The notes beneath the pieces were generated by a model. The model was not told the DNA's origin. It searched no databases and worked only from the letters and a program-made list of their open reading frames with translations. The position numbers and the translations under genes are program-made. A stretch of 64,000 nt of DNA from Aquabacterium sp. (GTDB lineage Bacteria > Pseudomonadota > Gammaproteobacteria > Burkholderiales > Burkholderiaceae_C), in NCBI RefSeq assembly GCF_016234775.1, contig NZ_JACRAH010000001.1:124001-188000 (forward strand), given 5' to 3'. Below, piece after piece: positions 6,548-29,547 of this stretch. Numbering within the stretch: the first letter of the stretch is position 1; the number at the start of each line of letters is the position of its first letter.

Positions 6548-7168
6548 TCAGTCTACCAGCCCGTGTGACACCGCGAATCGCGTCAGGCTGGCCACGTCGT
6601 GCAGATCCAGCCGCTGGATCAGTTCGGCGCGGTGATACTCGACCGTCTTGATGCTCACGGCCAGATCGCGGGCAATTTCCTTGTTGGACTGCCCTTTGGC
6701 GATGCAGCGCAGAACATCCTTTTGCCGAGGGGTGAGCTTGTCGCTGGCATCCTTGTCTTTGACGGCAGACAAGGCGATGTCCGGGCTCAGGTAAACGCGA
6801 CCTTCGCGTACACAGTGCAAGGCCATGGCGAGTTCAGCCAGCACGAAATCCTTGGAGACAAAGCCCGATACCCCGAGGTCGATGGCACGTTTGGCCAGAT
6901 CGGCATCGGTGCTGCTGGTCAGAATGACGATCTTGATCTCTGGTTGCGTCTGGCGAATGGCGCGTGCCACGTCCAGGCCGTTAACGCTGGGCATGTTCAG
7001 ATCCAGCAGCAGGATATCCGGTGGGGTGCTGGCGCAGGCCTTCAGGCAGCGCGGTCCATCATCCACGGCGGCGATGCACTCGAAACCACCAAGATCTTCC
7101 AAAATAGCCACAATACCGGCTCGAACCAGTATCTGATCGTCAGCTACGATGACCCGCATTGCTTGCAT
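6548..7168 (-). CDS. NarL/FixJ-family response regulator
   Basis: A 206-residue two-domain regulator. The receiver domain (residues 4-120) has the acidic pair DD, phospho-acceptor Asp in DILLLDLNMP and Lys in GFVSKDF. A LuxR-type helix-turn-helix follows (LTPRQKDVLRCIAKGQSNKE, then IARDLAVSIKTVEYHR). It is divergent from the hybrid kinase gene, with only 44 bases between starts, so the two form a likely pair. Alternative start ATG at 7159. It sits next to the chemosensory operon, which has no cheY. Confidence 0.9.
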   Translation of the reverse strand: MQAMRVIVADDQILVRAGIVAILEDLGGFECIAAVDDGPRCLKACASTPPDILLLDLNMPSVNGLDVARAIRQTQPEIKIVILTSSTDADLAKRAIDLGVSGFVSKDFVLAELAMALHCVREGRVYLSPDIALSAVKDKDASDKLTPRQKDVLRCIAKGQSNKEIARDLAVSIKTVEYHRAELIQRLDLHDVASLTRFAVSHGLVD

Positions 7169-7212: not shown

Positions 7213-9291
7213 GTGACATTGTTCCGTCGAGTCCGATCCCATGCATCCAGCTCCAGCTCGGCACCGAGATGGCGGGACGCGGTTTGCGGGCGATTTGTAC
7301 TGGACGGACAAGTCCTTCATGTTGATCCCAATGGTCAACGCTATCTGGGCTTGTCCAGAGCTCAGGTGGCTGTGTCCGCCTGGTTGAAGCAGCTGCGTGC
7401 CGAGGATGCTGTGGCCATCGAGCAGGCATTGGCGCTCAGGTCGGGCATCGACCTTCAGGTCCAGATTGGGCATACGGCCATCCTGATGCGAGGGAAGTCC
7501 TCAGGCGCTCATCGTGTCGAAGGGCTGTTGCTGAAACTGCCTCCTCCACGCAAGGTGCCACCAGGCACGCCGATTCGCGCGCGAGACGAGTTTGTCGCAG
7601 CCATCAGTCACGAGTTGCGTACACCGCTCAATGCCATTCTGGGCTTTGCGCGACTGGCCAGAGCCGACGCACCTGAGGGTGCCGAGCGGCGTCATCTGGA
7701 CTACATCGATCAGGCCTCCCGGTTGATGCTGCGGGTGGTCAATGATCTGTTGGACCTGACCCGTCTGGAAGCCGGCAAGCTGGAGATCGATCCCGAACAA
7801 CCCCTGAACATGCATGCTGTGGTGTCGCGGGTTGGGGCCGTGGCTGCCAGCCTCAGGCAGGACAAACCTGTGCGCTTGTATGCGTCGGTCGATGCTGCGT
7901 GTCCCATGCGTTTGCGTGGCGATGTCGGTCGCATCGAGCAGATTTTGCTGAACCTGGTGGCCAATGCCCTCAAATTCACGGACAGGGGGCGCATCGTGGT
8001 CGATGTTCGGCAACGCAGCAGACAAACAGAAAGCGTCGTGCTTCGGATCTCCGTCTCTGACACCGGTGCTGGCATCGCGATGGACCAGATTGCCCGAATC
8101 GGGCTGCCGTTCGAGCAGGCCAACAACCCATCATTGCCTCAAACCGGCGGCACAGGGCTGGGCCTGGCCGTGGTCAACCGTCTGCTTGAGTTGCATGGCA
8201 CGAGTCTGAAAGTAGCCTCTGTGGCCGGTGGTGGTTCCATTTTCTGGTTCGACATCGAGTTCCCGTTCGACGACGCCATTGCAGACGTGCCGCTGAAACC
8301 CGACACCCTGGTCATCAGCGAAGATGAGCGCCTGATCCAGACGATTGCCACGCAATGGGCTGTGCATGGTGAAGCCTTGTGCCATGGGGAGGATGCACAG
8401 TCCGCCTCGCGCTGGGTGCTCGACCTGGCTTCTGACCGCGCGCACCACATGGCTGGGCAAGGTCTGGCCTGGGGGCGGCAAATCTTCTGGGTCAGCGCCG
8501 AGCCTGCTGTGAACACCTCAGAGGTCTGCCCCTTGCCCTTGCTGGCCCATGCCGTCTTCGGTGGGGGCAGTGACGAGCGGCTGGAGCTGGATCCGCAACT
8601 GCGGGGCCTCAAGGTCCTGGTGGTGGAGGACAACGCCCTCAATCAACATGTGCTGCGTGAATACCTCAGGCGGCTGGGGGTCGATGTCACCATCGTGGGG
8701 GAGGGACGGCCCGTGCCGGCCTTGCTGGGGCAGCGACACGTTGATCTGGTTCTGCTGGACATCCAGTTGCCCGACTGGAGTGGCTGGGATGTGGCGCGAG
8801 CCGTGCGGGCGCTGCCCAATGGCAGCGACATGCGCATTGTGTTCTTGAGCGCGCACGTTGACCCTTCCGATCAGATCGAGGCTGCACACCTGGGCGCATT
8901 GGCCTGCCTGAGCAAACCGTTTGATGCTCCCCAGTTGCACCAGATTTTGCGGGAAGTGGCGCAAGCGGCCCGCGTTACCGAGCGACGATTCGAGCAGGCT
9001 CAGGTTGAGGATGCGGCAAATCCTGTACCAACCGTGCGCCCCAAAGCCGCCTTGCTTGGGCTTTTTGCCGCTCAGTGGCCAAGTCTGCGCACCCAGATCA
9101 CAGGCGCGGAAGATGCGCAGGCCTTGCGCAGGGCTGTCCACGCGCTGAGGGGCTCCTTGGCGGTGATGGGCCAGGCCAAGCTGGTCGAGCGCGCGCGGCA
9201 GGTCGAAGAGGCCTTGCTGGCAGGGCGGGTGATCACCATGGATGAGCTGCAGGATTGGCTCGTCGCGGTTGATCGCCTCGTCGATTTTTGA
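7213..9291 (+). CDS. Soluble hybrid sensor histidine kinase (HisKA-HATPase-REC-Hpt)
   Basis: 692 residues from a GTG start with AGGA five bases upstream. No membrane segment or signal peptide is visible, so it should be cytoplasmic. The first ~115 residues may be a PAS-like sensor fold. Then come HisKA with His133 in SHELRTPLN, HATPase with N-box NLVANALKF and G-boxes, a degenerate receiver-like stretch (about 360-440), a full receiver with Asp516 in LLDIQLP, and a C-terminal Hpt domain with His643 in AVHALRG. This layout can phosphorelay to the divergent NarL-type regulator. The cheW1 leader begins 13 bases after its stop. Confidence 0.9.
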   Translation: MTLFRRVRSHASSSSSAPRWRDAVCGRFVLDGQVLHVDPNGQRYLGLSRAQVAVSAWLKQLRAEDAVAIEQALALRSGIDLQVQIGHTAILMRGKSSGAHRVEGLLLKLPPPRKVPPGTPIRARDEFVAAISHELRTPLNAILGFARLARADAPEGAERRHLDYIDQASRLMLRVVNDLLDLTRLEAGKLEIDPEQPLNMHAVVSRVGAVAASLRQDKPVRLYASVDAACPMRLRGDVGRIEQILLNLVANALKFTDRGRIVVDVRQRSRQTESVVLRISVSDTGAGIAMDQIARIGLPFEQANNPSLPQTGGTGLGLAVVNRLLELHGTSLKVASVAGGGSIFWFDIEFPFDDAIADVPLKPDTLVISEDERLIQTIATQWAVHGEALCHGEDAQSASRWVLDLASDRAHHMAGQGLAWGRQIFWVSAEPAVNTSEVCPLPLLAHAVFGGGSDERLELDPQLRGLKVLVVEDNALNQHVLREYLRRLGVDVTIVGEGRPVPALLGQRHVDLVLLDIQLPDWSGWDVARAVRALPNGSDMRIVFLSAHVDPSDQIEAAHLGALACLSKPFDAPQLHQILREVAQAARVTERRFEQAQVEDAANPVPTVRPKAALLGLFAAQWPSLRTQITGAEDAQALRRAVHALRGSLAVMGQAKLVERARQVEEALLAGRVITMDELQDWLVAVDRLVDF

Positions 9292-9303: not shown

Positions 9304-9373
9304 CCCGGGTGAGGACCTGGGGCGCTTCCAAGGTGAGGGGCTGATGGGCTAAAGCCGGCCTTCTCCACACAAT
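9304..9373 (+). promoter_or_regulatory. cheW1 leader element, copy A
   Basis: A 70-base stretch that aligns without gaps to 17377-17446 upstream of cheW2. It starts with a hairpin-capable CCCGGGT-gagg-ACCTGGG, contains CTGATGGGC at the same offset (37 bases) and ends in CTCCACACAAT, close to CTCCACAAT in the other copy. It is either a conserved regulatory or RNA element, or a remnant of the duplication that made the two cheW genes. Confidence 0.55.
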
Positions 9374-9439: not shown

Positions 9440-10012
9440 ATGGACATCACAACGACCTCAGAGGTTCGTGAAACGGCCAACAGAGCTGAAGCCGCCGCGG
9501 CGAACGTGATGATCCCACAGCGCGGCGGCAACCAATACCTGACGTTCACCGCAGCAGGAACCACCTATGCGATGAGCATCGTGTCGACCAAGGAAATCAT
9601 CGAGTACGGATCCGTCACCAGGATCCCCTTGATGCCTGCCTTCATACGTGGCGTGATCAATGTGCGTGGCCTGGTGTTGCCTGTGATCGATCTGGCCGCC
9701 CGTCTGGGTTTCCCTCCGGCGCGGCCCGGGCGCCGGTCCTGCATCGTGATCGTCGAAATGACGCATGAAGGTGAGACCTTTGACCTGGGCGTGGTGGTGG
9801 ATGGCGTCAATGAAGTGCTGGAGCTGGATCAGGATGATCTGGAGCCACCTCCGCGATTTGGCGCCAACATCCGAAGCGATTTCATCGAAGCCATGGCACA
9901 TGTCCATGGTCACTTCGTCATCGTGATGCACCTGGAGCAGGTGTTGTCCATTGAAGAGGTGTCGGACTTGGCGAGGGTGAGTGAGTCCAGGCAACTGCTC
10001 GTCCATCATTGA
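9440..10012 (+). CDS. cheW: Chemotaxis coupling protein CheW (copy 1)
   Basis: 190 residues, one CheW domain (about 30-175) after a short disordered N-terminus. CheW joins receptors to the kinase CheA. The hallmark PAFIRGVINVRGLVLPVIDL is intact, including both RG pairs that contact CheA and receptor. The ATG at 9440 has GGAGACG about ten bases upstream. It is first in a nine-gene operon. It is clearly paralogous to CheW at 17476, sharing e.g. YLTF near the N-terminus and MH-EQ-L near the C-terminus. Confidence 0.92.
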   Translation: MDITTTSEVRETANRAEAAAANVMIPQRGGNQYLTFTAAGTTYAMSIVSTKEIIEYGSVTRIPLMPAFIRGVINVRGLVLPVIDLAARLGFPPARPGRRSCIVIVEMTHEGETFDLGVVVDGVNEVLELDQDDLEPPPRFGANIRSDFIEAMAHVHGHFVIVMHLEQVLSIEEVSDLARVSESRQLLVHH

Positions 10013-10046
10013 TCGATTCAATCTGACCTGACACAGAGGTGTGGCC

Positions 10047-10391
10047 ATGATCGAATGCACTTTGAGCGAAGCGGCGCAGGCAAGGTGCCTGACCATTCGA
10101 GGGGAGCTCACCATCGCCAGCGTGACGGATGCCAAGGCCTGTCTGCGCGCCACCTTGGTCGATTTGATTCCAGGCTCGCTGGCCCTTGATCTGAGCAAGC
10201 TCACTGAGGTTGACGCTGCCGGCGTGCAACTGCTGTTGTGCATGACGCGCAGCCTGCATGCGGCTGGCATGGCGATGAACGTTCAAGCGTGCTCTGACAG
10301 CCTGATCAACACGGCATGGGAGCTGGATCTGGCCGATGAGCAAGGTTGTCTGGGCGTGCCATACCAGACCCTGGTGGAGGTGCCAGCATGA
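10047..10391 (+). CDS. STAS-domain protein (anti-sigma antagonist-like) in chemosensory operon
   Basis: A single STAS domain of 114 residues. The start at ATG 10047 is favoured because AGAGGT ends six bases upstream; the in-frame GTG at 10041 has no spacing. The position of the phosphorylatable Ser in SpoIIAA-type antagonists (DSSG/DTSG) reads DAAG here (TEVDAAGVQLLL), so classical switching by Ser phosphorylation is not possible. STAS proteins are common partners in chemosensory operons of betaproteobacteria, where their role is unclear. It overlaps cheA by four bases (ATGA), implying translational coupling. Confidence 0.8.
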   Translation: MIECTLSEAAQARCLTIRGELTIASVTDAKACLRATLVDLIPGSLALDLSKLTEVDAAGVQLLLCMTRSLHAAGMAMNVQACSDSLINTAWELDLADEQGCLGVPYQTLVEVPA

Positions 10392-12571
10392 ACGACCTGG
10401 ATCTCGACATCAGCGGGGCGGTCGCCACCTTTCTGGTTGAAGGGCGCGAGTTGGCGCAAGAGCTGGAACAAGGCTTGCTCAAGCTGGAGCAAGGCCACGA
10501 TCGCAGTGACAGCGAGCTCATCAACGCGATGTTCCGTGCAGCGCACACCATCAAGGGGTCTGCAGGCATTGTGGGCATCGACAGCCTGGGGCGATTCACG
10601 CACAGGGTCGAGTCGCTGCTGGATCGTGTTCGCGAGGGCGAGCCCTTGCTGGACGATGACATGATCACGCGCTTGTTGCGCTGTTGCGATCACATTCTGA
10701 AGCTGCTGGATCTGGCAGAGGCAGGTGACCTCGAAGGGCAGGCTGTGTGTGACAAGGAGGCGGAACTGCTGGAGGGCCTGGGGCAGGATACGAGGGTAAG
10801 GGAGTCGGCGGGAGCGCCAGGCACCTACCATGAGCTCCCTGGTGGCGACAACTGTGGATTCAGGCTGTGGGCAGTGTTTGGGCGGGACTGCTTCCGTGAT
10901 GGGCTCGATCCTGCATCGGCCTTGCACTTTCTCAGCAGTCGCTGTGATGTGCGCCAGCGTGTCGCGTTGATCCAATCCCTGCCGGAATTCGACCAACTGG
11001 ATCCCGAGACATGTTTTCTGGCCGTGGCCTTGCACGCATCCAACCGTCATTGCGGCCTGGCTTATGAGACGTTCGAGTTCTTTCGTGAGTCCTCGCTGAT
11101 TGTGTCCTGCAGTGATGGCACATCGGCGGCCGTGGTCAGAGATTTGTTGCAACCCCTTCGCGCCCAATTGGGTGACGCGGCTTTGCAGCCCTGGCGAGAC
11201 GCCGGCCTCATTGCGCAAGACGAGTGGCAGGAACCCGTTGGGCGAATGGCCCGGCCTGTTGCGGCCGTGGCGACGCAGGCTGAGCGTCAGGATAATGGCG
11301 AACCACCCTCAGGCACCCAGGCTTCTCCTCGAAAGGCGGCCGCCTCGCCGAGCGCCGGCGCAGCGGGTGGCGCATCCAATGCGACCCGATTCGTGCGCGT
11401 ACCGGCTCAGCGATTGGACTCGCTCATCTCCCAGGTGGGCGAGCTGGTGATCGCCGGGGCTGGTGTGGACGTACAGGCAAAACAGATCGGGCATGTCGCG
11501 CTGCAGGAGGCCGTTGGCACGCTGATGCAGTTGATTGACACCATCCAGTCCAGCACCTTGCAGATGCGCATGGTGCCCATCGGCGAGACCTTCAGTCGTT
11601 TTCAGCGTGTGGTGCGCGACGTGGCCCATGAACTGGGCAAGAACATCAAGCTGGACGTTGTGGGTGCGGAGACCGAGTTGGACAAGGCCATGGTTGAACG
11701 CATCGGTGATCCGCTGATGCACCTCGTGCGCAATGCGATGGACCATGGGCTGGAAACCCCTCAGGACCGCGCGGCATCCGGCAAGCCCGAGCAAGGAACC
11801 CTGAGGCTGCGCGCGTTTCATGATTCAGGCAATGTCGTGGTCGAGGTCAGCGACGACGGTCGAGGGCTGCGCCGAGACAAGATCATCGACAAGGCGCTGG
11901 CCAAGGGCCTGATCAGTACAGCCGAAGGGCTGTCCGATCATGAGGCCTATCAACTCATCTTCGAGCCGGGCTTTTCTACGGCAGAGCAAGTCACCAGCCT
12001 GTCCGGCCGCGGTGTGGGCATGGACGTGGTCAAGAAGAGCGTGGAAGCCCTGCGCGGCACCATCACCTTGAATTCCCGCGAGGGAGAGGGCACGCTGGTT
12101 CAGATGCGCCTGCCTTTGACGCTGGCGATCATCGATGGGTTCATGGTGGCGGCAGGCGATGCTCGCTTCATCGTGCCCCTTGACATGGTCGTCGAATGCA
12201 TCGAATTGCCTCCAGATGCCCTCTCGGCAGGCAGCCCGCAGTACATCAACCTGCGCGGTGAGGTTCTGCCATATGTCTGCTTGAGACAGGCTTTCGATAT
12301 CGATGGCCCTGCCGTGCGCCGCCCCAGCGTGGTTGTTGTCCGTTTCTCGGACATGAAGATCGGCTTGCTGGTGGATGGTCTGCTGGGTGAAATGCAGACG
12401 GTCATCAAGCCGATGAGCGGCATCTTCCGCCACCTGAGGTCAGTGTGCGGAACCAGCATTCTTGGAACGGGCGACATCGCCTTGATTCTGGATGTTCACC
12501 AGCTTGTGTCCAGTTCACTGGACAAGAGTACCAGGCAAGCAGTGTTGCTTGCCCCCACGCCAACAGTCTGA
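10388..12571 (+). CDS. cheA: Chemotaxis histidine kinase CheA
   Basis: 727 residues from the ATG at 10388, with GGAGG seven bases upstream. Order: Hpt (P1) with phospho-His53 in [10 protein letters not shown]; a linker domain of about 170 residues (130-300) unlike the usual CheY-binding P2; dimerisation (P3, about 340-400, [18 protein letters not shown]); ATPase (P4) with N-box [14 protein letters not shown] and GRGVGMDVV; and a CheW-like P5 (about 585-720). It autophosphorylates and passes phosphate to response regulators. There is no fused receiver, and the only receiver inside the operon is CheB. Confidence 0.95.
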
Positions 12572-12584
12572 CGAGGAGCGCATC

Positions 12585-14840
12585 ATGGGTGCAATGGATC
12601 TATTCTTGAGTCGGCATGACGATCGCCTGACTGCCTGGTCGACGCGTGCGCAGATGGCCATAGAGAGTGGACATCAGGCCGACGCCCTGGCGTTGACGGA
12701 TTTCACCGGCGCAACGCGCAATTACGCCGAAATGGCGCTGTCATGGATGCGCCTGGCGAGCCGCCAGCAGGAGGGGCTCATCGACCTGACAGCTCGGGCC
12801 GAGAAATTGACGGACGCGATGGCCCTTGCTCAATCTCGGGAGGCCATGCTACAGGCTGAGTTGCAGGCGATCGGCCGGTCTCAGGCCATCATCAGTTTCG
12901 ATACGCAGGGTCACATACTGGATGCCAATGACAATTTTCTTCAGACCCTCGGGTACAGCCTGGACGAAGTCAAGGGGCGTCATCACAGCATGTTCGTAGA
13001 CCCGGCGTACCGTGAATCGATCGAATACCGGCAGTTCTGGGAAAACCTGGCGCTCGGCCGCTACGATGCCGGGCAGTACAAGCGCATCGCCAAGGGCGGC
13101 AAGGAAGTCTGGATACAGGCAAGTTACAACCCGGTATTGGACAAGGATGGCCGGCCTTGCAAGGTGATCAAGGTCGCTGCTGACATCACCGCAGACAAGC
13201 TGCGCAATGCCGACTACCAGGGGCAACTGGCTGCGATTGGCAAGTCACAGGCCGTCATCGAATTTGATCTCAAAGGCAACATCCTGTTTGCCAATGACAA
13301 CTTCCTCAATGCCGTTGGCTACTCCCTGGACGAGGTCAAAGGTAGGCATCACAGCCTGTTTGTTGATCCCACCTACCGTGACAGCCCGGCCTATCGCCAG
13401 TTCTGGGAGCGCCTGGGGGCCGGCCAGTTTGATGCGGGGCAGTATCAACGCATTGGCAAGGGCGGGCGCGAGATCTGGATTCAGGCCAGCTACAACCCGA
13501 TTTGCGACATGAGCGGCCGCCCCTTCAAGGTGGTGAAGTATGCGGCCGACATCACCGAACAGGTGTTGTCAGCCCGCGCGTTCGAGCAAGAGCTGGAGTT
13601 CGTGGTGGGCAGCGCGTCCAAGGGGGATTTCGATCAGCGGTTCAACATGCAAGGCAAGCAGGGCATGCAAATGACGACAGCCAGGAGCGTCAACGCCTTG
13701 CTGGCGGCCAGTCAGGCAGGCTTGCGCGAGGTGCAGGAGATCACCAACAAGGCCATTCGGGGTGATTTTGCAGACCGCATCAAGCTGGATGGCAAGCAAG
13801 GCTTCTTCCTGGATCTGGGGGTCGGGACCAACGATCTGATGGATGTGGTGGAGCAGGGCTTGATGACGGTACAGACCGCGCTGCAGGCGATGGCGTCGGG
13901 TGACCTCAATCACGTCATTGACGACAATTTCGAAGGCATCTTTGACGAGCTCAAGCAGTCCTTCAACGCCACGATCGGCAAGCTCCGCCAGGTCATCGGT
14001 GACGTGAGGGCCAACTCCGACATGCTGGCGACGGCGGCCACTCAGATTGCGGGTACGGCTTCCAGCCTGTCGGAGTCGGCCAACAACCAGGCCACCAGCG
14101 TCGAGGAGACTTCGTCTGCCATCGAGCAGATGACCGCCTCCATCGGACAGAACGCCGACAACGCGAAGGTCACGGATGGCATGGCACGCAAGGCCGCTGG
14201 AGAGGCCCATGACGGCGGCGCAGCGGTGGGTGAAACCGTTGGCGCCATGAAGAGCATTGCCAACAAGATCGGCATCATCGATGACATCGCCTACCAGACC
14301 AATCTGTTGGCGCTGAACGCGGCCATCGAGGCGGCGCGGGCTGGAGAACATGGCAAGGGGTTTGCCGTGGTGGCAGCCGAAGTCAGGAAGCTGGCCGAGC
14401 GCAGTCAGGTCGCAGCGCAGGAAATCGGGCAACTGGCTGCTGGCAGTGTGCACACGGCAGAACGTGCGGGCGCCTTGCTTGGCGAAATCGTACCAGCCAT
14501 CAAGCGAACCAGTGATCTGGTGCAGGAGATCACCGCCGCCAGCGACGAGCAGTCCACCGGTGTCGGGCAGATCAACATGGCGATGAGCCAGTTGACCCAG
14601 CTGATTCAACAGAATGCGGCGGGCAGCGAGGAACTGGCGGCCACCGCCGAGGAGATGACGCTGCAGGCAGACAAGCTTCGCCAGATGATGGAGTTCTTTC
14701 AGATCGGCTATCGCGAGCCCTCACCATCTCACGTCGCAGCCAAGCCCGTGGTGACAAGGATGGCCCCCAGCAGGGTGTCCGATGCGGGTGGATCGGTAGA
14801 CGAGAGCAAGTTTCGCCGCATGGCCAGCGTTCGCCACTGA
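12585..14840 (+). CDS. Soluble methyl-accepting chemotaxis receptor with duplicated PAS domain
   Basis: 751 residues from the ATG at 12585 (GAGGAG seven bases upstream). No membrane segment is visible, so this is a cytoplasmic receptor. Order: helical region (1-92), two PAS domains (about 94-205 and 216-326) that are near-copies offset by 122 residues, a linker with HAMP-like repeats (330-480), and the signalling hairpin with tip [20 protein letters not shown] and methylation helices on either side. It ends in MASVRH with no NWETF-type CheR tether. PAS domains of this type often bind haem or flavin; the ligand cannot be read from sequence. Confidence 0.93.
12864..13595 (+). repeat. Tandem duplication of 366 bp inside the receptor gene (two PAS units)
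   Basis: Codons for [12 protein letters not shown] (residue 95 on) and [12 protein letters not shown] (residue 217 on) start two units 366 bases apart. Shared blocks include [21 protein letters not shown] and IQASYNP. The copies have drifted at the DNA level, so this is an older in-gene duplication. Confidence 0.85.
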
Positions 14841-14864: not shown

Positions 14865-15680
14865 ATGATTGGTGCTGAGATTTCTGATAAGGACTTCGAA
14901 CGCCTTCGGCGCTTCTTTGAGTCGGCTTCCGGCATCCATCTGGCTGACTGCAAGAAGGTGCTGGTGTGCGGCAGGCTCTCGCGTCGCTTGCGGCACTTCA
15001 AGCTGGACAGTTACCGCGAGTACATGGATCTGATCGAGTCTCCCAATCAGCGTGCCGAGCGCCAGATGGCAATTGACCTGTTGACGACGAACGAGACGCA
15101 CTTCTTCCGTGAGCCCAAACACTTCGAGCGGTTCCGTCGTGTGTTGAAGGAGTTGGCAGATCGGCCAGGCAGCCCGGCGATTCGCGTCTGGAGCGCAGCC
15201 TGCTCCACGGGCGAAGAGCCCTACAGCCTGGCCATGACCATGTCTGAGGTGCTGGGGGGGCGCAGCTGGAGCGTCCTGGCATCTGATTTGTCCATGAAGG
15301 TCCTGGAGGACGCGAGACTGGGCATCTACCAGAGCCAGCGTTTCTGCGAAATTCCCCGCGACCTGGCAGAAAAGTATGTGCTGGAGGGCTTCGACGAATA
15401 TGCCGGGCAGTACCGCATGGATGCCAGCCTTCGCCAGCGGGTGCACTTCGAGCAGATCAATCTGATGGAGCCCTTGCCGCGGGTCGGCCCCTTTGACGTG
15501 ATTTTCCTGCGCAATGTACTGATCTATTTTGATAAGGCTTCCAAGCGTCGGATCGTGGACGCCCTGGTCCAGAAACTGCGCCAGGGTGGCTTGCTGTTCA
15601 TCGGGCATTCCGAAACCCTGGGTGGGGTGACCGATTCTGTGGTGGCGATCGAACCCACGGTGTACCAGAGGCAGTCATGA
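14865..15680 (+). CDS. cheR: Chemotaxis protein methyltransferase CheR
   Basis: 271 residues; methylates receptor glutamates using S-adenosylmethionine. The N-terminal helical domain (about 1-75) is followed by the SAM-binding domain with VWSAACSTGEEPYSLAM (about residues 107-123), LASDLS and the conserved LRNVLIYFD. Active-site region TTNETHFFRE is intact. GGAG lies eight bases before the ATG. The stop overlaps the start of cheD1 by four bases (ATGA). Confidence 0.95.
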   Translation: MIGAEISDKDFERLRRFFESASGIHLADCKKVLVCGRLSRRLRHFKLDSYREYMDLIESPNQRAERQMAIDLLTTNETHFFREPKHFERFRRVLKELADRPGSPAIRVWSAACSTGEEPYSLAMTMSEVLGGRSWSVLASDLSMKVLEDARLGIYQSQRFCEIPRDLAEKYVLEGFDEYAGQYRMDASLRQRVHFEQINLMEPLPRVGPFDVIFLRNVLIYFDKASKRRIVDALVQKLRQGGLLFIGHSETLGGVTDSVVAIEPTVYQRQS

Positions 15681-16234
15681 GTGATGCCATCTTGTCACCG
15701 GCGGGGCTTGACAGGGCGTTGCCAGTGCTGGAGGGCAATGGGCAGATTGCTTGCAACGCCATCGGTGCCACGAGTGTGACCTTGCGGGAGGGGCAATGGT
15801 TCTTTGGCCGTGGTGATGTCCATGTGTCGGTTTTGGTGGGCGCCAGTGTGGCCTTGGTCCTGTGGTCGCCGCGGCAAGGTTGGGGCGGGGTCTGTTGCTT
15901 TGCTCATGCTGAACCCGCTTCAGGAGGTAGTCGGCAGGGGCTTGACATGCCGCGGCCAGCCCAGGAGTTGACGCGCCAGCTTGAGGATCGTCTGGCCCGT
16001 ACGGGCGGCCACTGGTCTGGCATTGAACTGTCTCTGGCTGGCGGCGCGCATCACCACGATAGCGATGTCGGGATGCTCAATGTGGCCTGGTCTCAGCAAT
16101 GGGCCGGCAGCAAGGGGCTCGTCCCTCGTCTGCAAGATGTGGGGGGGCGTGTTCTGCGTCGTCTCACTTTTCAGCTGATGGATGGCACTGTTCGCATTGC
16201 CCATGGCGGGCGCATGTGTTCTCAGGAGATGTGA
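15677..16234 (+). CDS. cheD: CheD-like protein 1 with altered catalytic residues
   Basis: 185 residues, placed in CheD by overall pattern: TLREGQ start, glycine-rich VLVGAS turn, GG-x3 strand, [11 protein letters not shown] and [10 protein letters not shown]. CheD is normally a receptor glutamine deamidase with Cys, His and Thr (C27, H44, T21 in Thermotoga, from memory). Here the Cys position is Ser57, the Thr position (-6) is Ser51, and the His position (+17) is Cys74, followed by His77. The usual enzyme chemistry is therefore doubtful. It lies between cheR and cheB, the normal place for cheD. The CheD at 18026 shows the same changes. Confidence 0.8.
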
Positions 16235-16235
16235 C

Positions 16236-17348
16236 ATGGGTCAGGGTCCGATTCGGGTGATGGTGGTCGATGACTCGGCCGTGGTGCGGCAGGTGCTTGG
16301 CGCGATGGTCAGCAGCGAGCCAGGGTTGGAGCTCATCGGCGCACATTCGGACCCGCTGTTTGCGCAGAAGGCCATGGCCCAGAACTGGCCGGATGTGTTG
16401 ATCCTGGATGTGGAGATGCCCCGCATGGATGGCGTCACGTTCCTGCGCCAGATCATGAGCACACGGCCCACGCCCGTGGTGATCTGTTCTACGCTGACCA
16501 CAGCCAACGCTTCAACCACGCTGGAGGCGATGCAGGCCGGGGCTTTCGAGATCATCGAAAAGCCCAATGCCAGCGTGCGAGATCAGCTTCAAGCGCAGAG
16601 GCAACGCCTGATCAGTGCGGTCAAGAGTGCCGCAAGGGCCAATGTGCATGCGTTGGCCCGCAAAGTTACGCCCACGAGCGTCGTTCCTTTGCCCATGGGG
16701 CTTGAAGCCGACAAGGCCAAGCCTGTACGTGCCATGTCCGAGACGACGGACCGCATCGTGGCGGTCGGGACCTCTACAGGCGGCACCCAGGCTCTGGAGT
16801 TTCTGCTCAGTCGTTTGCCGGTGACGGCGCCGGGCATGGTCATCGTGCAGCACATGCCTGAGGCCTATACCCTGGCCTTTGCCGAAAGGCTCAACCAGGT
16901 GTGTCAGGTTCGTGTGAAGCAGGCGCAGGATGGTGAGCGCATCATCAGCGGCCAGGCGCTGATCGCCCCCGGGGGGCGGCATCTTCAGGTGCGCAGGCAG
17001 GGCGCTTACTACTACGCAGTCGTCAAGGACGGACCGCCTGTTTCACGGCATCGCCCCAGCGTCAACGTCTTGTTTGCCTCTGTGGCTCACCATGCCGGTC
17101 CGAACGCCGTCGGGATCATCATGACGGGCATGGGGGATGATGGCGCCAGGGGCATGCTGGAGATGAAGCAGGCCGGGGCGACCACCTATGCGCAGGATGA
17201 AGCCAGTTGCGTCGTGTTCGGCATGCCGCGTGAGGCCATCAAATTGCATGCAGTGGACCAGATTCTGCCGCTCGATGAGTTGCACGATGCCTTGATGGGG
17301 CGCATCAGTGCCAAAGGCCGTCGCACCGCAGCTGCACAGCCGGCTTGA
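16236..17348 (+). CDS. cheB: Chemotaxis methylesterase/deamidase CheB
   Basis: 370 residues from the ATG at 16236 (CAGGAG seven bases upstream). N-terminal receiver with Asp58 in LILDVEMP and Lys in IIEKPN, then the methylesterase domain with the triad Ser180 (GTSTGG), His206 (VQHMPE) and Asp302 (MTGMGDDG), all intact. It removes methyl groups set by CheR and can deamidate receptor Gln, which may make up for the altered CheD proteins. It is the only classical CheA phosphate acceptor encoded inside this operon. Confidence 0.95.
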
Positions 17349-17376
17349 GATGGTTCAACGGGGTGACCAGTTTCTT

Positions 17377-17446
17377 CCCGGGTCAGGACCCGGGGCGGCC
17401 CCAAGGTATGGCGCTGATGGGCATTCGGGGCTTGCATCTCCACAAT
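17377..17446 (+). promoter_or_regulatory. cheW2 leader element, copy B
   Basis: Second copy of the 70-base leader found at 9304-9373, same length and no gaps. Its dyad is perfect: CCCGGGT-cagg-ACCCGGG. It lies 28 bases after the cheB stop and ends 29 bases before the cheW2 start. No T-tract follows the hairpin, so it is not an ordinary terminator. Confidence 0.55.
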
Positions 17447-17475
17447 TCATTCATGGATTACGCAGGAGAGCAAGC

Positions 17476-18045
17476 ATGATCGCATCGAGGGCTCGCAAGG
17501 GCAGATCAACCGCCATTCCGCCAGAGGTCACTACCGCGCCAATGGTGATCCATAGCGGCGGAACCCCTTATCTGACCTTCAGTGCAGGGCATTCCCATTA
17601 CGCGCTGTACATCGTCTCGACAACGGCCATCGTGGATGCGCCCAGCATTGCCGCTGACCCTCGCATGCCTGAGTTTGTCAAAGGCGCGGTCCAAGTGGAG
17701 GATCGTCTGATACCGGTTATCGACCTGGCCAGTCGCATGGGCCTTCCACCTGCGCGGGTAGCACGCCGTTGCTGTGTGGTGCTGGTGAATGCGCACTTGG
17801 GAGACAAGGTCATCGAAGTGGGTGTGGAGGTTGACCATGTCCAGGAGGTGCTGGATTTAGGGCGGCCCGAACCGGACCTCCCACCCCCTTGTGGTGCCAA
17901 CATCAATACGCACTTTGTTGAACTCATGGCCAAGCGACCAGGGCATTACGCGATGGTGATGCACGTGGAGCAGCTGTTGTTCACCGATGAGTTGTTGGCG
18001 TTGTCTGAACTGGAGGAGTTGGCAGATGACGTCGTTCATCACTGA
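17476..18045 (+). CDS. Divergent CheW paralogue (copy 2)
   Basis: 189 residues from the ATG at 17476 with AGGAGAG six bases upstream. One CheW domain, clearly related to CheW1 (PVIDLA, GANI, MVMHVEQLL). The conserved coupling motif is degraded: where CheW1 has IRGVINVRGLV, this has VKGAVQVEDRL, losing the second RG. It may bind CheA or receptor poorly, or have a new partner. It overlaps cheD2 by 20 bases, so the two are probably translated together. Confidence 0.82.
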   Translation: MIASRARKGRSTAIPPEVTTAPMVIHSGGTPYLTFSAGHSHYALYIVSTTAIVDAPSIAADPRMPEFVKGAVQVEDRLIPVIDLASRMGLPPARVARRCCVVLVNAHLGDKVIEVGVEVDHVQEVLDLGRPEPDLPPPCGANINTHFVELMAKRPGHYAMVMHVEQLLFTDELLALSELEELADDVVHH

Positions 18046-18640
18046 TTTGCTGCGGGCAAACACGCCTCATCGCCAACCTCAGCCGACATTGGCGCCTTGC
18101 CAGGATGCGGTGGGTGGCGACTTGCCTGGCTTCCTGGAGAGCAGTGGTTTGGTGAGCCGGCATTCGGCCGTTGAACGCAGTGTGTTGCTCAGGCCAGGGG
18201 ATTGGTTGTTTGGCCGTGGAAACCTGCGGGTGTCGGCCATGCTGGGCGCCAGCCTCGCCCTGGTGATGTGGGTGCCTCGGTACAGACTGGGCGCCGTGTG
18301 CTGCATTGCCCATCCTGTCCGACCTGCCGGCGTATATGGGTTGGAAGGGCCGTGTGGCCTCTACGGTGAAGATGCCGTTCGCTGGCTGGACGAACGTCTT
18401 CAAAGAACAGCCTGTGATTGGTCTGATGTGGCGTTGTCGTTGATTGGTGGTGCGCATCAGCAGGGGGGATGTGCGGGCCAGCGCAACGTCAGTTGGGTGC
18501 AGGCATGGTCTGCGACGCAGCATCTGGTGCCTGCGTTTCAGGATGTCGGGGGGAGTGTGTTGCGCAAGCTCAACTTCAATCTGACAGATGGCAGTGTGAC
18601 GGTGACCCACGGCGGAAGCCTTGGCAGCGTCGACGTCTGA
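18026..18640 (+). CDS. CheD-like protein 2 with altered catalytic residues
   Basis: 204 residues from the ATG at 18026, with GGAGGAG upstream inside the cheW2 coding region. Paralogue of the protein at 15677. The catalytic positions show the same substitutions: Ser76 for Cys (MLGAS), Ser70 for Thr, Cys93 for His, then His96 in VCCIAHP. The GGAHQQGG and DVGGSVLRKL segments match CheD. Last gene of the chemosensory operon. The shared CC-x-A-H motif suggests constraint on both copies rather than random decay. Confidence 0.78.
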   Translation: MTSFITDLLRANTPHRQPQPTLAPCQDAVGGDLPGFLESSGLVSRHSAVERSVLLRPGDWLFGRGNLRVSAMLGASLALVMWVPRYRLGAVCCIAHPVRPAGVYGLEGPCGLYGEDAVRWLDERLQRTACDWSDVALSLIGGAHQQGGCAGQRNVSWVQAWSATQHLVPAFQDVGGSVLRKLNFNLTDGSVTVTHGGSLGSVDV

Positions 18641-18671: not shown

Positions 18672-20084
18672 TCAGACCCTGACGACTGTCACGGAGCAGT
18701 CAGCCTCTGCCACCACCTGGGCGCTCACGCTTCCCAGGTAGCGCCGCAAGGCCGAGTTGCCGCGCGCACCCATCACGATGTGATCCACCTGGTTCTTGTT
18801 GGCAAACTCGACCAAGGCGTGGGCGGTATCCGGTGCTTCCAGCACGTGGAAGGTCAGGCGGTGCTCGTCGAGCTCCAGTTGCTGCTGAAGCGGCCGGGCC
18901 CAGTGCTTGATGGCCACCAGTTGCTGCACATGCAGGCTGTTGCCCTCGTCGTCTGTCAGCTTGTCCATGCCGACGCGGTTGATCTTCATGATGCTGACGC
19001 ATGCCAGACGCGCGCCCGGCTCGATCTGCAGGATGCGCCTGACGGTGGCCAGCAGCTTCTTGTCCAGTTCGGGTGTGCTGGCCTTGGTGGCGATCGCCAC
19101 CATGATGATCGGGCTGTGCTCGACGTGCTGGGTGGCATTGGCCTCGGCCTCGGGCTCCGCACCCATGGCCTTGAACCAACGGCGCAGGCTGCTGATGCCG
19201 CCGCGAGGCGCCATGTGCTCGGCGCGTTTGGTCAGCGGGATCTGATCGGGGTGTTGCAGGTCCAGTGCGAGCTGGGCGCCGGTCTGATAGCGTTTGGCCG
19301 GGTCTACCTCCAGACAGCGCAGGATCACCTCCTGCAGCCACGGCGGGGTATCGGCTCGGTGGGCGCGAGGCGGAATCGGGTCGGTATAAAGCCGCTTGCG
19401 CAGGCCTGACACCGTGCTGGGGCTGCCGAAGGGGCGCTCGCCCGTGGTCAGGTGATAGAGCATCACGCCCAGTGCGAAAAGGTCGCTGCGTGGATCGTTG
19501 CGGATGAACTGCACCTGCTCGGGCGACATGTAGGGCCCTGTGCCCATGGGCAGCGAGAACTCCTCTTCCAGCAGATCAGGCAGTTGCGCGTGCCGTGACA
19601 GACCGAAATCGATCAGCACAGCCTCTCCCGTGGGGCGGAACATGATGTTGCTGGGCTTGACATCCAGGTGTACCAGGTGCTGCTTGTGCAACTCGTGCAA
19701 GGCGAAGGCGACGCGCTGGCCAATCTCGGCGACCTCGTCAAACGGCAAGGGCGCCTTGTCCAGCCTGGGGCGCAAGGATTCGCCCTGGATGTGCTCCATC
19801 ACGATGTAGGGCTGCTTGATGAAGTCGCCCTTGGTGAGGAAGCGCGGCACGTGCGGCCCCTTGAGCATGGGCATCACCATTTGTTCGACCTCGAAGCCCA
19901 CGATGGTGGCCGGATCCTCGCCGCCTTTGATGCGCGGGATCTTCATGATCAATGCATGCCCGGTGTCGCCGTCCAGCGGCTCCACATCCCACAAGGTGGC
20001 CATGCCGCCTTGGTGCAGTTTCTCCTTGAGGCGAAACTGGTCAATCACATCGCCGGTTTGCAGTTTTCCTGGCGGAGTCATCAT
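18672..20084 (-). CDS. Serine/threonine protein kinase fused to a universal stress protein domain
   Basis: 470 residues. The N-terminal Hanks-type kinase (about 12-285) has GGMATLW loop, Lys in LIMKIPR, catalytic HLDVKPSN (HRD with Leu for Arg), DFG in LIDFGLSR and APE-like SPEQ. The C-terminal ~145 residues form a UspA domain ending in a nucleotide-binding motif (GARGNSALRRYLGS) and CSVTVVRV. No membrane anchor is seen. The Leu in the HRD motif is typical of kinases not controlled by activation-loop phosphorylation. Convergent with cheD2; the phosphoesterase gene lies 32 bases upstream on the same strand. Confidence 0.9.
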   Translation of the reverse strand: MMTPPGKLQTGDVIDQFRLKEKLHQGGMATLWDVEPLDGDTGHALIMKIPRIKGGEDPATIVGFEVEQMVMPMLKGPHVPRFLTKGDFIKQPYIVMEHIQGESLRPRLDKAPLPFDEVAEIGQRVAFALHELHKQHLVHLDVKPSNIMFRPTGEAVLIDFGLSRHAQLPDLLEEEFSLPMGTGPYMSPEQVQFIRNDPRSDLFALGVMLYHLTTGERPFGSPSTVSGLRKRLYTDPIPPRAHRADTPPWLQEVILRCLEVDPAKRYQTGAQLALDLQHPDQIPLTKRAEHMAPRGGISSLRRWFKAMGAEPEAEANATQHVEHSPIIMVAIATKASTPELDKKLLATVRRILQIEPGARLACVSIMKINRVGMDKLTDDEGNSLHVQQLVAIKHWARPLQQQLELDEHRLTFHVLEAPDTAHALVEFANKNQVDHIVMGARGNSALRRYLGSVSAQVVAEADCSVTVVRV

Positions 20085-27819: not shown

Positions 27820-29547
27820 TCAAAACAGGAAGTAGCGCTGCGCCATGGGCAGCGAGGTGGCGGGCTCGCAGGTCAGCAACTGGCCGTCCGCTCGCACCTG
27901 GTAGGTCTGGGCATCGATCTCCATCACGGGCATGTAGGCGTTGTGCACCATGTCTGTTTTCTTGACCGTGCGGCAGCCCTTCACACCCACCACCTGCTTT
28001 TTCAACCCGTATTGCTGGGGCAGCTCGGCGCTGATGGCCGCCTGGCTCATGAAGGTCAGTGAACTGCGGCTCAGGGCCCCGCCAAAGGCGCCAAACATGG
28101 GGCGGTAGTGCACCGGCTGCGGTGTGGGAATGGAGGCATTGGGATCACCCATGGCCGCTGCAGCAATGAAGCCGCCTTTGAGGATCAGGCTGGGCTTGAC
28201 GCCAAAGAAGCCGGGTTTCCACAGCACGAGGTCTGCCCACTTGCCTTCTTCGATGCTGCCCACTTCATGCGCCACACCATGGGCCAGCGCCGGGTTGATG
28301 GTGTACTTGGCCACATAGCGCTTGACACGGGCGTTGTCGTGGCGATCGGTGTCGCCAGGCAGCTTGCCCCGCTGCGACTTCATCTTGTGGGCCGTCTGCC
28401 AGGTGCGCATGATGACCTCGCCCACGCGGCCCATGGCCTGCGAGTCGGAGCTGAACATGCTGATGGCGCCCAGGTCATGCAGGATGTCTTCGGCGGCGAT
28501 GGTTTCGCGGCGGATGCGGCTTTCCGCAAAGGCCAGGTCTTCGGCGATGGAGGCGTCCAGGTGGTGGCACACCATGAGCATGTCGAGGTGCTCGTCAATG
28601 GTGTTGACCGTGAAAGGCCGCGTCGGGTTGGTGGAGGAGGGCAGCACATTGAGCTCGCCCACCACCTTCATGATGTCCGGCGCGTGCCCGCCGCCCGCGC
28701 CTTCGGTGTGGAAGCTGTGGATGGTGCGGCCCTTGAAGGCGGCCACCGTGTCTTCCACGAAGCCGGATTCATTGAGCGTGTCCGAGTGGATGGCCACCTG
28801 GATGTCAGCTTCTTCCGCCACGCTCAGGCAGGTGTCGATGGCCGCGGGTGTGGTGCCCCAGTCTTCGTGCAGCTTCAGGCCGATCACGCCGGCTTCGACT
28901 TGCTGACGCAGCGCCTCGGGGCGGCTGGCGTTGCCCTTGCCCAGGAAGCCCAGGTTCATCGGGAAGGCCTCGGCGGCCTTGAGCATCATGGCGATGTTGT
29001 CCGGGCCGGGCGTGCAGGTGGTGGCGAAGGTGCCCGTGGCCGGGCCGGTGCCGCCGCCGATCATGGTGGTCACGCCGCTGTTCAGCGCTTCTTCGATCTG
29101 CTGCGGGCAGATGAAGTGGATGTGGGTGTCCAGGCCGCCAGCGGTCACGATCATGCCTTCAGCGGCAATGATTTCGGTGCCTGGGCCAATGACGATGTCC
29201 ACGCCGGGTTGCACATCGGGGTTGCCGGCCTTGCCGATCTTGACAATGCGGCCCGCCTTGATGCCGATGTCGGCCTTGATGATGCCCCAGTGATCCAGGA
29301 TCAAGGCATTGGTCAGTACACAGTCGAAGGCTTCCATGGCACCAGGGCCGTTGCAAACCTGGCTTTGGCCCATGCCATCACGGATGGTCTTGCCACCGCC
29401 AAACTTGACTTCTTCGCCATAGCCACCAGCGCGCAAGGTCAGATCCTGCTCGACCTCGATGACCAGATTGGTGTCCGCCAGGCGCAGTCGGTCGCCCACG
29501 GTGGGGCCGAACATCTCGGCATAGGCGCGTCGGGGAATGCTTGCCAT
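27820..29547 (-). CDS. ureC: Urease alpha subunit
   Basis: 575 residues; catalytic subunit hydrolysing urea to ammonia and carbamate at a di-nickel centre. Visible are HIHFICPQQ (metal His pair), the carbamylated Lys in [19 protein letters not shown], the [12 protein letters not shown] metal-binding segment and the flap region MVCHHLD with the active-site His. Length and start ([16 protein letters not shown]) fit the family. ureB lies 33 bases upstream, ureE 36 bases downstream. Confidence 0.98.

Follow-up and report, generated by a model that had tools for sequence, protein, structure and literature searches.

What can a CheD protein do when none of the three residues of its catalytic triad, given as Cys27/His44/Thr21 in the relevant portion of PMC7022378, is left? 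The question is raised by two paralogous genes, cheD1 and cheD2, of a chemosensory cluster on a stretch of Aquabacterium DNA (hereafter the window, 64,000 nucleotides at its full length) that forms part of a 4.27-Mb draft genome (G000). As a first-pass annotation made from the letters of the window had proposed, both open reading frames exist and both encode CheD proteins with replacements at all three catalytic columns. On the basis of sequence comparison, we regard it as fairly probable that CheD1 and CheD2 are CheD pseudoenzymes acting by binding, with CheD2 and a divergent CheW (CheW2) forming a non-coupling adaptor. The segments on which the argument turns are the following.

15677–16234, plus strand: CheD1, 185 amino acids, a triad-less CheD between cheR and cheB (open reading frame; Pfam CheD, 28.5 bits; AlphaFold2; Foldseek)
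15830–15847, plus strand: CheD1 V52 (Thr column) to S57 (Cys column) (alignments and profile)
15893–15907, plus strand: CheD1 C73 C74 F A H77, with C74 in the catalytic His column (alignments and profile)
18026–18640, plus strand: CheD2, 204 amino acids, a triad-less CheD with its ATG at 18026 (open reading frame; Pfam CheD, 35.1 bits; AlphaFold2; Foldseek)
18236–18253, plus strand: CheD2 A71 (Thr column) to S76 (Cys column) (alignments and profile)
18299–18313, plus strand: CheD2 C92 C93 I A H96, with C93 in the catalytic His column (alignments and profile)

Catalytic columns and predicted fold

The relevant residues are S51, V52, S57, C73, C74, A76 and H77 in CheD1, and S70, A71, S76, C92, C93, A95 and H96 in CheD2 (with the ATG at 18026 as its start). 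The profile built from 193 canonical sequences aligns without any gap over the motif to CheD1, to CheD2 and to the orthologue of CheD2 in the Aquabacterium metagenome-assembled genome (MAG) FW301_bin.9 (loci L035/L065), and it places V52/A71 in the Thr column, S57/S76 in the Cys column and C74/C93 in the His column; the MAG orthologue has Ala, Ser and Cys, respectively, at the same three columns. The earlier assignments of Ser57/Ser76 to the catalytic Cys and of Cys74/Cys93 to the catalytic His are thus upheld, the latter with one dissenting pairwise alignment that is considered below. The Thr position, in contrast, had been set one residue off, at Ser51/Ser70: in 83/83 canonical rows the Thr precedes the Cys by five residues (TLLGSC type), and position −6 is variable among CheD homologues. 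The Thr of the Thermotoga maritima chain aligns with the canonical Thr through a one-residue insertion in an 87-row profile. Two automatic alignments that put a gap inside the CC of CheD1 were excluded from the residue counts.

The CC-x-A-H motif, previously described as new, is present in both proteins, but it is new only in part. Its first Cys corresponds to the Cys preceding the catalytic His in most homologues (MCH) and is therefore ancestral, which leaves the second Cys as the only new one, and the His at +3 occurs in 7/192 other CheDs, beside an intact catalytic His. A canonical Cys elsewhere in CheD1 or CheD2 was rejected on the alignment to the 193-row profile. Sequencing error was likewise rejected as very unlikely, because the two copies use different codons (AGT/AGC for Ser, TGT TGC/TGC TGC for CC) and the Ala-Ser and CC-x-A-H residues recur in the orthologue of the second genome.

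Loss of the whole triad is exceptional among the CheD domains examined: 193/198 keep Thr, Cys and His, and the 3/198 that have lost all three are CheD1, CheD2 and the MAG orthologue of CheD2, which form one clade. The first 87 rows of this survey came from the best matches (up to 30) of each search, part of the matches listed and not a random sample; Thr, Cys and His are each present in 83/83 canonical rows from the searches of the genus, family and order. A phylum-wide addition (115 loci among the matches listed, giving 111 distinct rows) retains the Cys in 111/111, the His in 110/111 and the Thr in 110/111 rows. The residue counts rest on these two alignments; seven duplicate and two spurious rows were removed from the survey, and one locus (L130), judged by its motif alone, is canonical. 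Genome G011 has a CheD with Gly at the Cys column and with Thr and His kept. The sole exception among the 111 phylum rows, L226 (G1108, same class), carries Asn in the catalytic His column and Ser in the Thr column, so that partial loss of the triad occurs elsewhere too.

The clade is rare. Among the matches listed, strong matches come from 4/42 genomes of the genus and 1/21 of a second genus, whereas at that level only the own genome and G011 match in a 399-genome sample of the family, and only the own genome in a 399-genome sample of the order. One named locus was returned when GTDB 220 was scanned for two narrow peptide patterns, a scan from which the window's own record may be missing. Spread on plasmids was rejected, with one distant Aeromonas match at 25% identity. 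A literature search covering open-licence papers found no report of a triad-less CheD; as far as could be seen, a natural triad-less CheD lineage and its pairing with a CheW devoid of its salt bridge (see below) are apparently new, while the fold, the relatives and binding roles of CheD were already known.

For both proteins, structure prediction yields the CheD fold. Their AlphaFold models, built from the 87-row alignments, have a mean predicted local distance difference test score of 89.3 (CheD1) and 86.5 (CheD2), and the first Foldseek match of each is T. maritima CheD, 2f9z_C (E 8.3e-10 and 2.1e-10, respectively; template modelling score to the target 0.79), the only one at an E of 0.001 or below; among the weaker matches are NTAN1 and YfiH-type proteins. 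Both pass the Pfam CheD model (PF03975, cut-off 25 bits), which is blind to the loss of the triad because the match begins after the catalytic Cys and His (at residue 114 in the canonical L001, past Cys95 and His112). They fail the NCBIfam equivalog for the CheD deamidase (best scores 49.7 and 49.9 bits against a cut-off of 236) and, by the profile, have none of the catalytic Cys, His and Thr of the CheD deamidase. CheD1 and CheD2 are thus like the known deamidases (PF03975; T. maritima 2f9z, Bacillus subtilis CheD) in predicted fold, Pfam score, structural glycines and the Asn and Arg columns, CheD1 also in its cheR/cheB neighbourhood, and differ from them in the replaced equivalents of Thr21, Cys27 and His44, in a shortened loop after GGA, in the distance to the equivalog cut-offs and in that no CheC was found with them.

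Origin and conservation of the triad-less clade

The two proteins belong to a clade of six (tree supports 100/99) in which the canonical CheDs of G434 and G402 are sister to four Cys-less proteins (99/89); among the latter, the G011 CheD (Cys to Gly) is sister to the three triad-less proteins (100/97), where CheD1 branches first and CheD2 pairs with its MAG orthologue. Removal of the motif columns leaves the same groups, with Shimodaira-Hasegawa-like approximate likelihood ratio test (SH-aLRT) values of 100 for the six, 67 for the Cys-less four and 92 for the three. The triad-less clade is shallow and nests among the proteobacterial CheDs, where its sisters are canonical or lack the Cys, which does not fit the separate CheD-like family that had been suggested. 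Convergent loss of the triad in the two copies was rejected in view of this single clade, and the “MCHIVHA” subgroup of CheDs, which likewise has a +3 His, was rejected as their home, since it forms a separate clade at 100/100. In the simplest history the Cys was probably lost first, then the Thr and the His, and duplication followed: with a sister that has lost only its Cys, the triad was probably dismantled stepwise, before the duplication. CheD1 occupies the ancestral place between cheR and cheB, the same as in G402 and G011. The G011 CheD (L006/L063) is like the window's proteins in gene order, clade, missing Cys and the equivalents of Trp132 and Trp157, and differs in keeping Thr and His; no second CheW-CheD pair was found in its 13 kb, where the contig stops after CheB and a pair beyond is possible.

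Change in these proteins is concentrated around the former active site. Canonical CheDs have 22 columns with conservation above 90%. All three triad-less proteins retain 12 of these (seven Gly together with Leu, Pro, Cys, Asn and Arg), and at least one of the three departs from each of the other ten. Eight of the ten fall in two active-site segments, CheD2 residues 71–77 and 91–93, and four (A75, S76, V91 and C93) are identical in the three proteins. Since 4/10 changed conserved columns are identical anyway, shared residues alone do not prove a new catalytic function. The earlier view that both copies are under the same constraint accordingly stands to the extent that one change made before the duplication has been kept since; the retained residues are compatible with a function of the Cys and His but do not prove it. 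The Cys-less proteins share other residues as well. Trp132 (0/192 other rows) and Trp157 (7/191 others) are found in all four, and neither occurs in G402 or G434; Trp161 is common to the six clade members (7/191 others). In the AlphaFold model of CheD2, Trp157 and Trp161 lie on one helix (150–164), and the Trp residues are possibly a new binding face.

The ratio of nonsynonymous to synonymous substitution rates (dN/dS), estimated between the window and the MAG by the Nei-Gojobori method with our own script, is 0.15 for CheD2, 0.20 for CheW2 and 0.21 for the adjacent hybrid histidine kinase, ratios that are rough because dS is near saturation; the minus-strand protein downstream of cheD2 has 0.02 and a canonical CheD pair 0.07. 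By these ratios CheD2 is under purifying selection.

CheW2, the leader repeat and the surrounding locus

The remaining features of the locus, with the gene order response regulator, hybrid histidine kinase, CheW1, STAS, CheA, MCP, CheR, CheD1, CheB, CheW2 and CheD2 from position 6548 onward, are as follows.

6548–7168, minus strand: response regulator of the LuxR/NarL type (named by eye from the sequence; a similar open reading frame in L065), divergent from the kinase gene
7213–9291, plus strand: hybrid histidine kinase, HisKA-HATPase-REC-Hpt (Pfam); the kinase directly adjoins CheW2-CheD2 in the MAG
9304–9349, plus strand: leader repeat/hairpin 5' of cheW1 (repeat comparison, folding, pattern scan)
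9440–10012, plus strand: CheW1, canonical coupling protein with NVRG (Pfam and alignment)
10041–10391, plus strand: STAS-domain protein (Pfam)
10388–12571, plus strand: CheA kinase (Pfam)
12585–14840, plus strand: methyl-accepting chemotaxis protein (MCP) with two PAS domains and HAMP (Pfam), candidate target of CheD1
14865–15680, plus strand: CheR methyltransferase (Pfam)
16236–17348, plus strand: CheB methylesterase (Pfam; STGG, QHM and MGDDG motifs present)
17377–17422, plus strand: leader repeat/hairpin 5' of cheW2 (83% copy of 9304–9349; hairpin; pattern scan)
17476–18045, plus strand: CheW2, divergent CheW (Pfam CheW, 66.1 bits; alignment; tree)
18672–20084, minus strand: kinase- and UspA-like protein (named by eye), 3' of cheD2

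The ATG of cheD1 overlaps the stop codon of cheR, and the last 20 bases of cheW2 are also the first 20 of cheD2. The MCP has Glu/Gln pairs at residues 507–508, 514–515, 655–656 and 682–683 (by a relaxed motif). Its gene also contains an internal duplication (12867–13557), two PAS-coding stretches with 72–73% identical DNA.

CheW2 is well above the Pfam cut-off (PF01584, 23.5 bits) and yet departs from all other CheWs compared. In an alignment of 86 rows, taken from loci among the matches listed, the Arg of the NLRG motif is present in 84/84 other rows and replaced in CheW2 by Glu (window) or Asp (MAG), and the Glu of the EI motif, present in 82/82 other rows with a letter there, is Ala in both CheW2 proteins. 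We take these columns, mapped via the motifs, to be R62 and E38 of Escherichia coli. PMC3828127 describes the Arg62-Glu38 salt bridge of CheW as aligning the receptor and kinase sites; CheW2 appears to have lost both partners of this conserved bridge. The tree joins CheW2 to the window's CheW1 at an SH-aLRT of 89 and, at 99, to the CheW proteins encoded in the clusters of G402 and G011, which points to CheW2 as a duplicate of CheW1. A partial parallel is FrzB of Myxococcus xanthus, a divergent CheW according to an excerpt of PMC6952110: as far as that excerpt goes, both are second CheWs, found beside a core CheW, in which one standard interaction is gone and a different role has been taken on (in CheW2, a proposed one), but FrzB is without the CheA-binding region, whereas CheW2 aligns over almost the full Pfam model and is without the Arg-Glu pair; no CheD partner of FrzB is named in the excerpt.

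Both cheW genes are preceded by copies of a 46-bp repeat, 83% identical, which can fold into a hairpin; the hairpin repeat reads CCCGGGTNANGACCYGGG. Allowing up to one mismatch, the leader pattern occurs in the own genome only at cheW1 and cheW2 and in the MAG once, 5' of cheW2 (no control matches in either); G402 has it 5' of cheW and at one further place, G011 5' of cheW among several places (two control matches), and in G434 the scan did not find it (one control match). The repeat may be a shared regulatory element. A known RNA family was rejected as its identity, as only a ureB small RNA and a transfer RNA reached the Rfam gathering score in 107,527 bases; the former match (5_ureB_sRNA, RF02514, 116 bits) lies at 29088–29386. 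A scan for consensus promoters and terminators gave no result.

The MAG provides a second state of the locus. Its contig (11,980 bases) carries a parC-like and an SDR-like gene (both by eye), the response regulator, the kinase, CheW2, CheD2 and the minus-strand gene; the block from CheW1 to CheB is missing, and the junction bears a leader of the cheW2 type. The two leader repeats suggest that the block may have been removed by recombinational deletion. The CheA of the cluster was probably lost from the MAG, an assembly of about 630 contigs, because its best CheA matches are only 44–46% identical (66% in G402, 64% in G011). CheW2 and CheD2 of the MAG are 62% and 66% identical to those of the window, and both frames are open. 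The minus-strand protein at 18672–20084 is 97% identical to that of the MAG, against 62–66% for its neighbours the kinase, CheW2 and CheD2, indicating sharply different rates or histories. In G434, locus L061 (9313–10205) has a canonical CheD with no more than a C-terminal fragment of CheB next to it, and no match to CheA, MCP or CheR was found there in 20 kb.

Binding, decay or a rebuilt site

The loss of the triad, the predicted CheD fold and the purifying selection on CheD2 together support a non-catalytic lineage, one of the options raised in the first-pass annotation, and the lineage probably uses CheD for binding rather than catalysis. Precedent comes from B. subtilis, where a CheD mutant with poor binding and normal deamidation was as bad as the null in proline taxis, as reported in PMC3513319; by the same paper, binding matters more than the deamidase activity there, as proposed here, with the difference that the B. 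subtilis protein remains a functional enzyme and acts through CheC. In Aquabacterium, CheD1, whose gene shares an operon with those of the MCP, CheR and CheB, would modulate CheA by binding to the MCP, much as the B. subtilis protein does by binding. Any deamidation would be done by CheB or by the two canonical CheDs that the genome has besides CheD1 and CheD2, and it need not be missed, since these are present and CheB looks intact by its motifs. CheD2 would work with CheW2, in which the bridge aligning receptor and kinase sites appears to be lost; a complex of the two is favoured because their genes overlap, were both duplicated within the cluster and have been kept together. CheD2 seems independent of the adjoining CheA, MCP, CheR and CheB of the cluster, as the MAG keeps CheW2-CheD2 without the block. 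As a non-coupling adaptor, the pair would then serve either chemosensory arrays or the neighbouring histidine kinase, and it could outlive the core cluster. We give a smaller but real chance to a bolder version, in which CheW2-CheD2, derived from the duplicated cheW (with its leader hairpin) and cheD of the cluster, is a new two-protein module off the chemosensory array that serves the adjacent hybrid kinase and response regulator, the two genes beside which it is left on its own in the MAG.

Several points weigh against the binding interpretation. The triad-less sequences number only three, from two genomes that are both fragmented assemblies, and dN/dS covers CheD2 only, there being no CheD1 orthologue on which to gauge selection; dS reaches 1.4–1.7 in the CheD2, CheW2 and kinase pairs. 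The drop to 67 for the Cys-less four when the motif columns are removed makes two separate losses of the Cys possible. The loop at the M101-F102 contact of B. subtilis CheD, by our mapping, is shortened in 5/6 clade members, including the canonical G402 and G434, and long in G011, so that receptor binding of the known type may be changed. Finally, when CheD1 is aligned pairwise with T. maritima CheD, the match is weak (E 0.028) and opens a three-residue gap that sets His77 opposite the catalytic His and S51 opposite the Thr, with Ser still at the Cys; for column assignment we preferred the deeper profile.

That the genes are simply decaying, the cluster breaking up and its CheDs drifting after function was lost, could be read from the missing Cys of the sister G011, the CheB fragment beside the canonical CheD of G434 and the missing block of the MAG. 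We consider this unlikely: the frames of all three triad-less proteins are intact and the gene overlaps kept, the dN/dS of CheD2 and CheW2 is 0.15–0.20, structural columns persist while active-site columns change, and the Trp residues common to the Cys-less proteins as well as the leader hairpin have been retained. More doubtful still is a rebuilt site, in which C93/C74, H96/H77 and H144/H125, with S76/S57, would catalyse a new reaction, bind metal or sense redox. YfiH-type proteins bind metal through Cys/His, and such folds are among the weak Foldseek matches; C93, H96 and H144 are shared by all three triad-less proteins and missing from the other three clade members, and the T. maritima alignment just mentioned puts His77 at the catalytic His. 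However, the +3 His is found in 7/192 canonical CheDs and a His at the H144 column in 5/191, and the identity is no greater than slow columns show (the four of ten above). The moved Cys/His pair offered as an alternative by the first-pass annotation has no positive support. Binding of a CheC-type partner, suggested there too and modelled on CheDs that regulate the CheC phosphatase (B. subtilis CheD acts with CheC in the part of PMC3513319 cited), is very improbable, as PF04509 has no match in the own genome (assembly about 95% complete) and was found in 4/14 control genomes. Equally remote is a surviving deamidase with Ser76/Ser57 as nucleophile: all three triad-less proteins have Ser at the Cys column, and His77 could replace the catalytic His if the weak alignment were right, but the profile puts Cys in place of the base His and Val/Ala in place of the Thr, and PMC7022378 has Cys and His strictly conserved in CNF1/YfiH-like cysteine hydrolases, the group that includes CheD.

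Pfam-based annotation will label the triad-less proteins as CheD. In B. subtilis the modifying activity of CheD is not easily told apart from its binding, and a lineage that apparently lost the triad stepwise but retained and duplicated the protein makes binding directly testable. Together with its MAG counterpart, the locus amounts to an experiment of nature that asks which chemosensory components can last with no CheA and MCP alongside.

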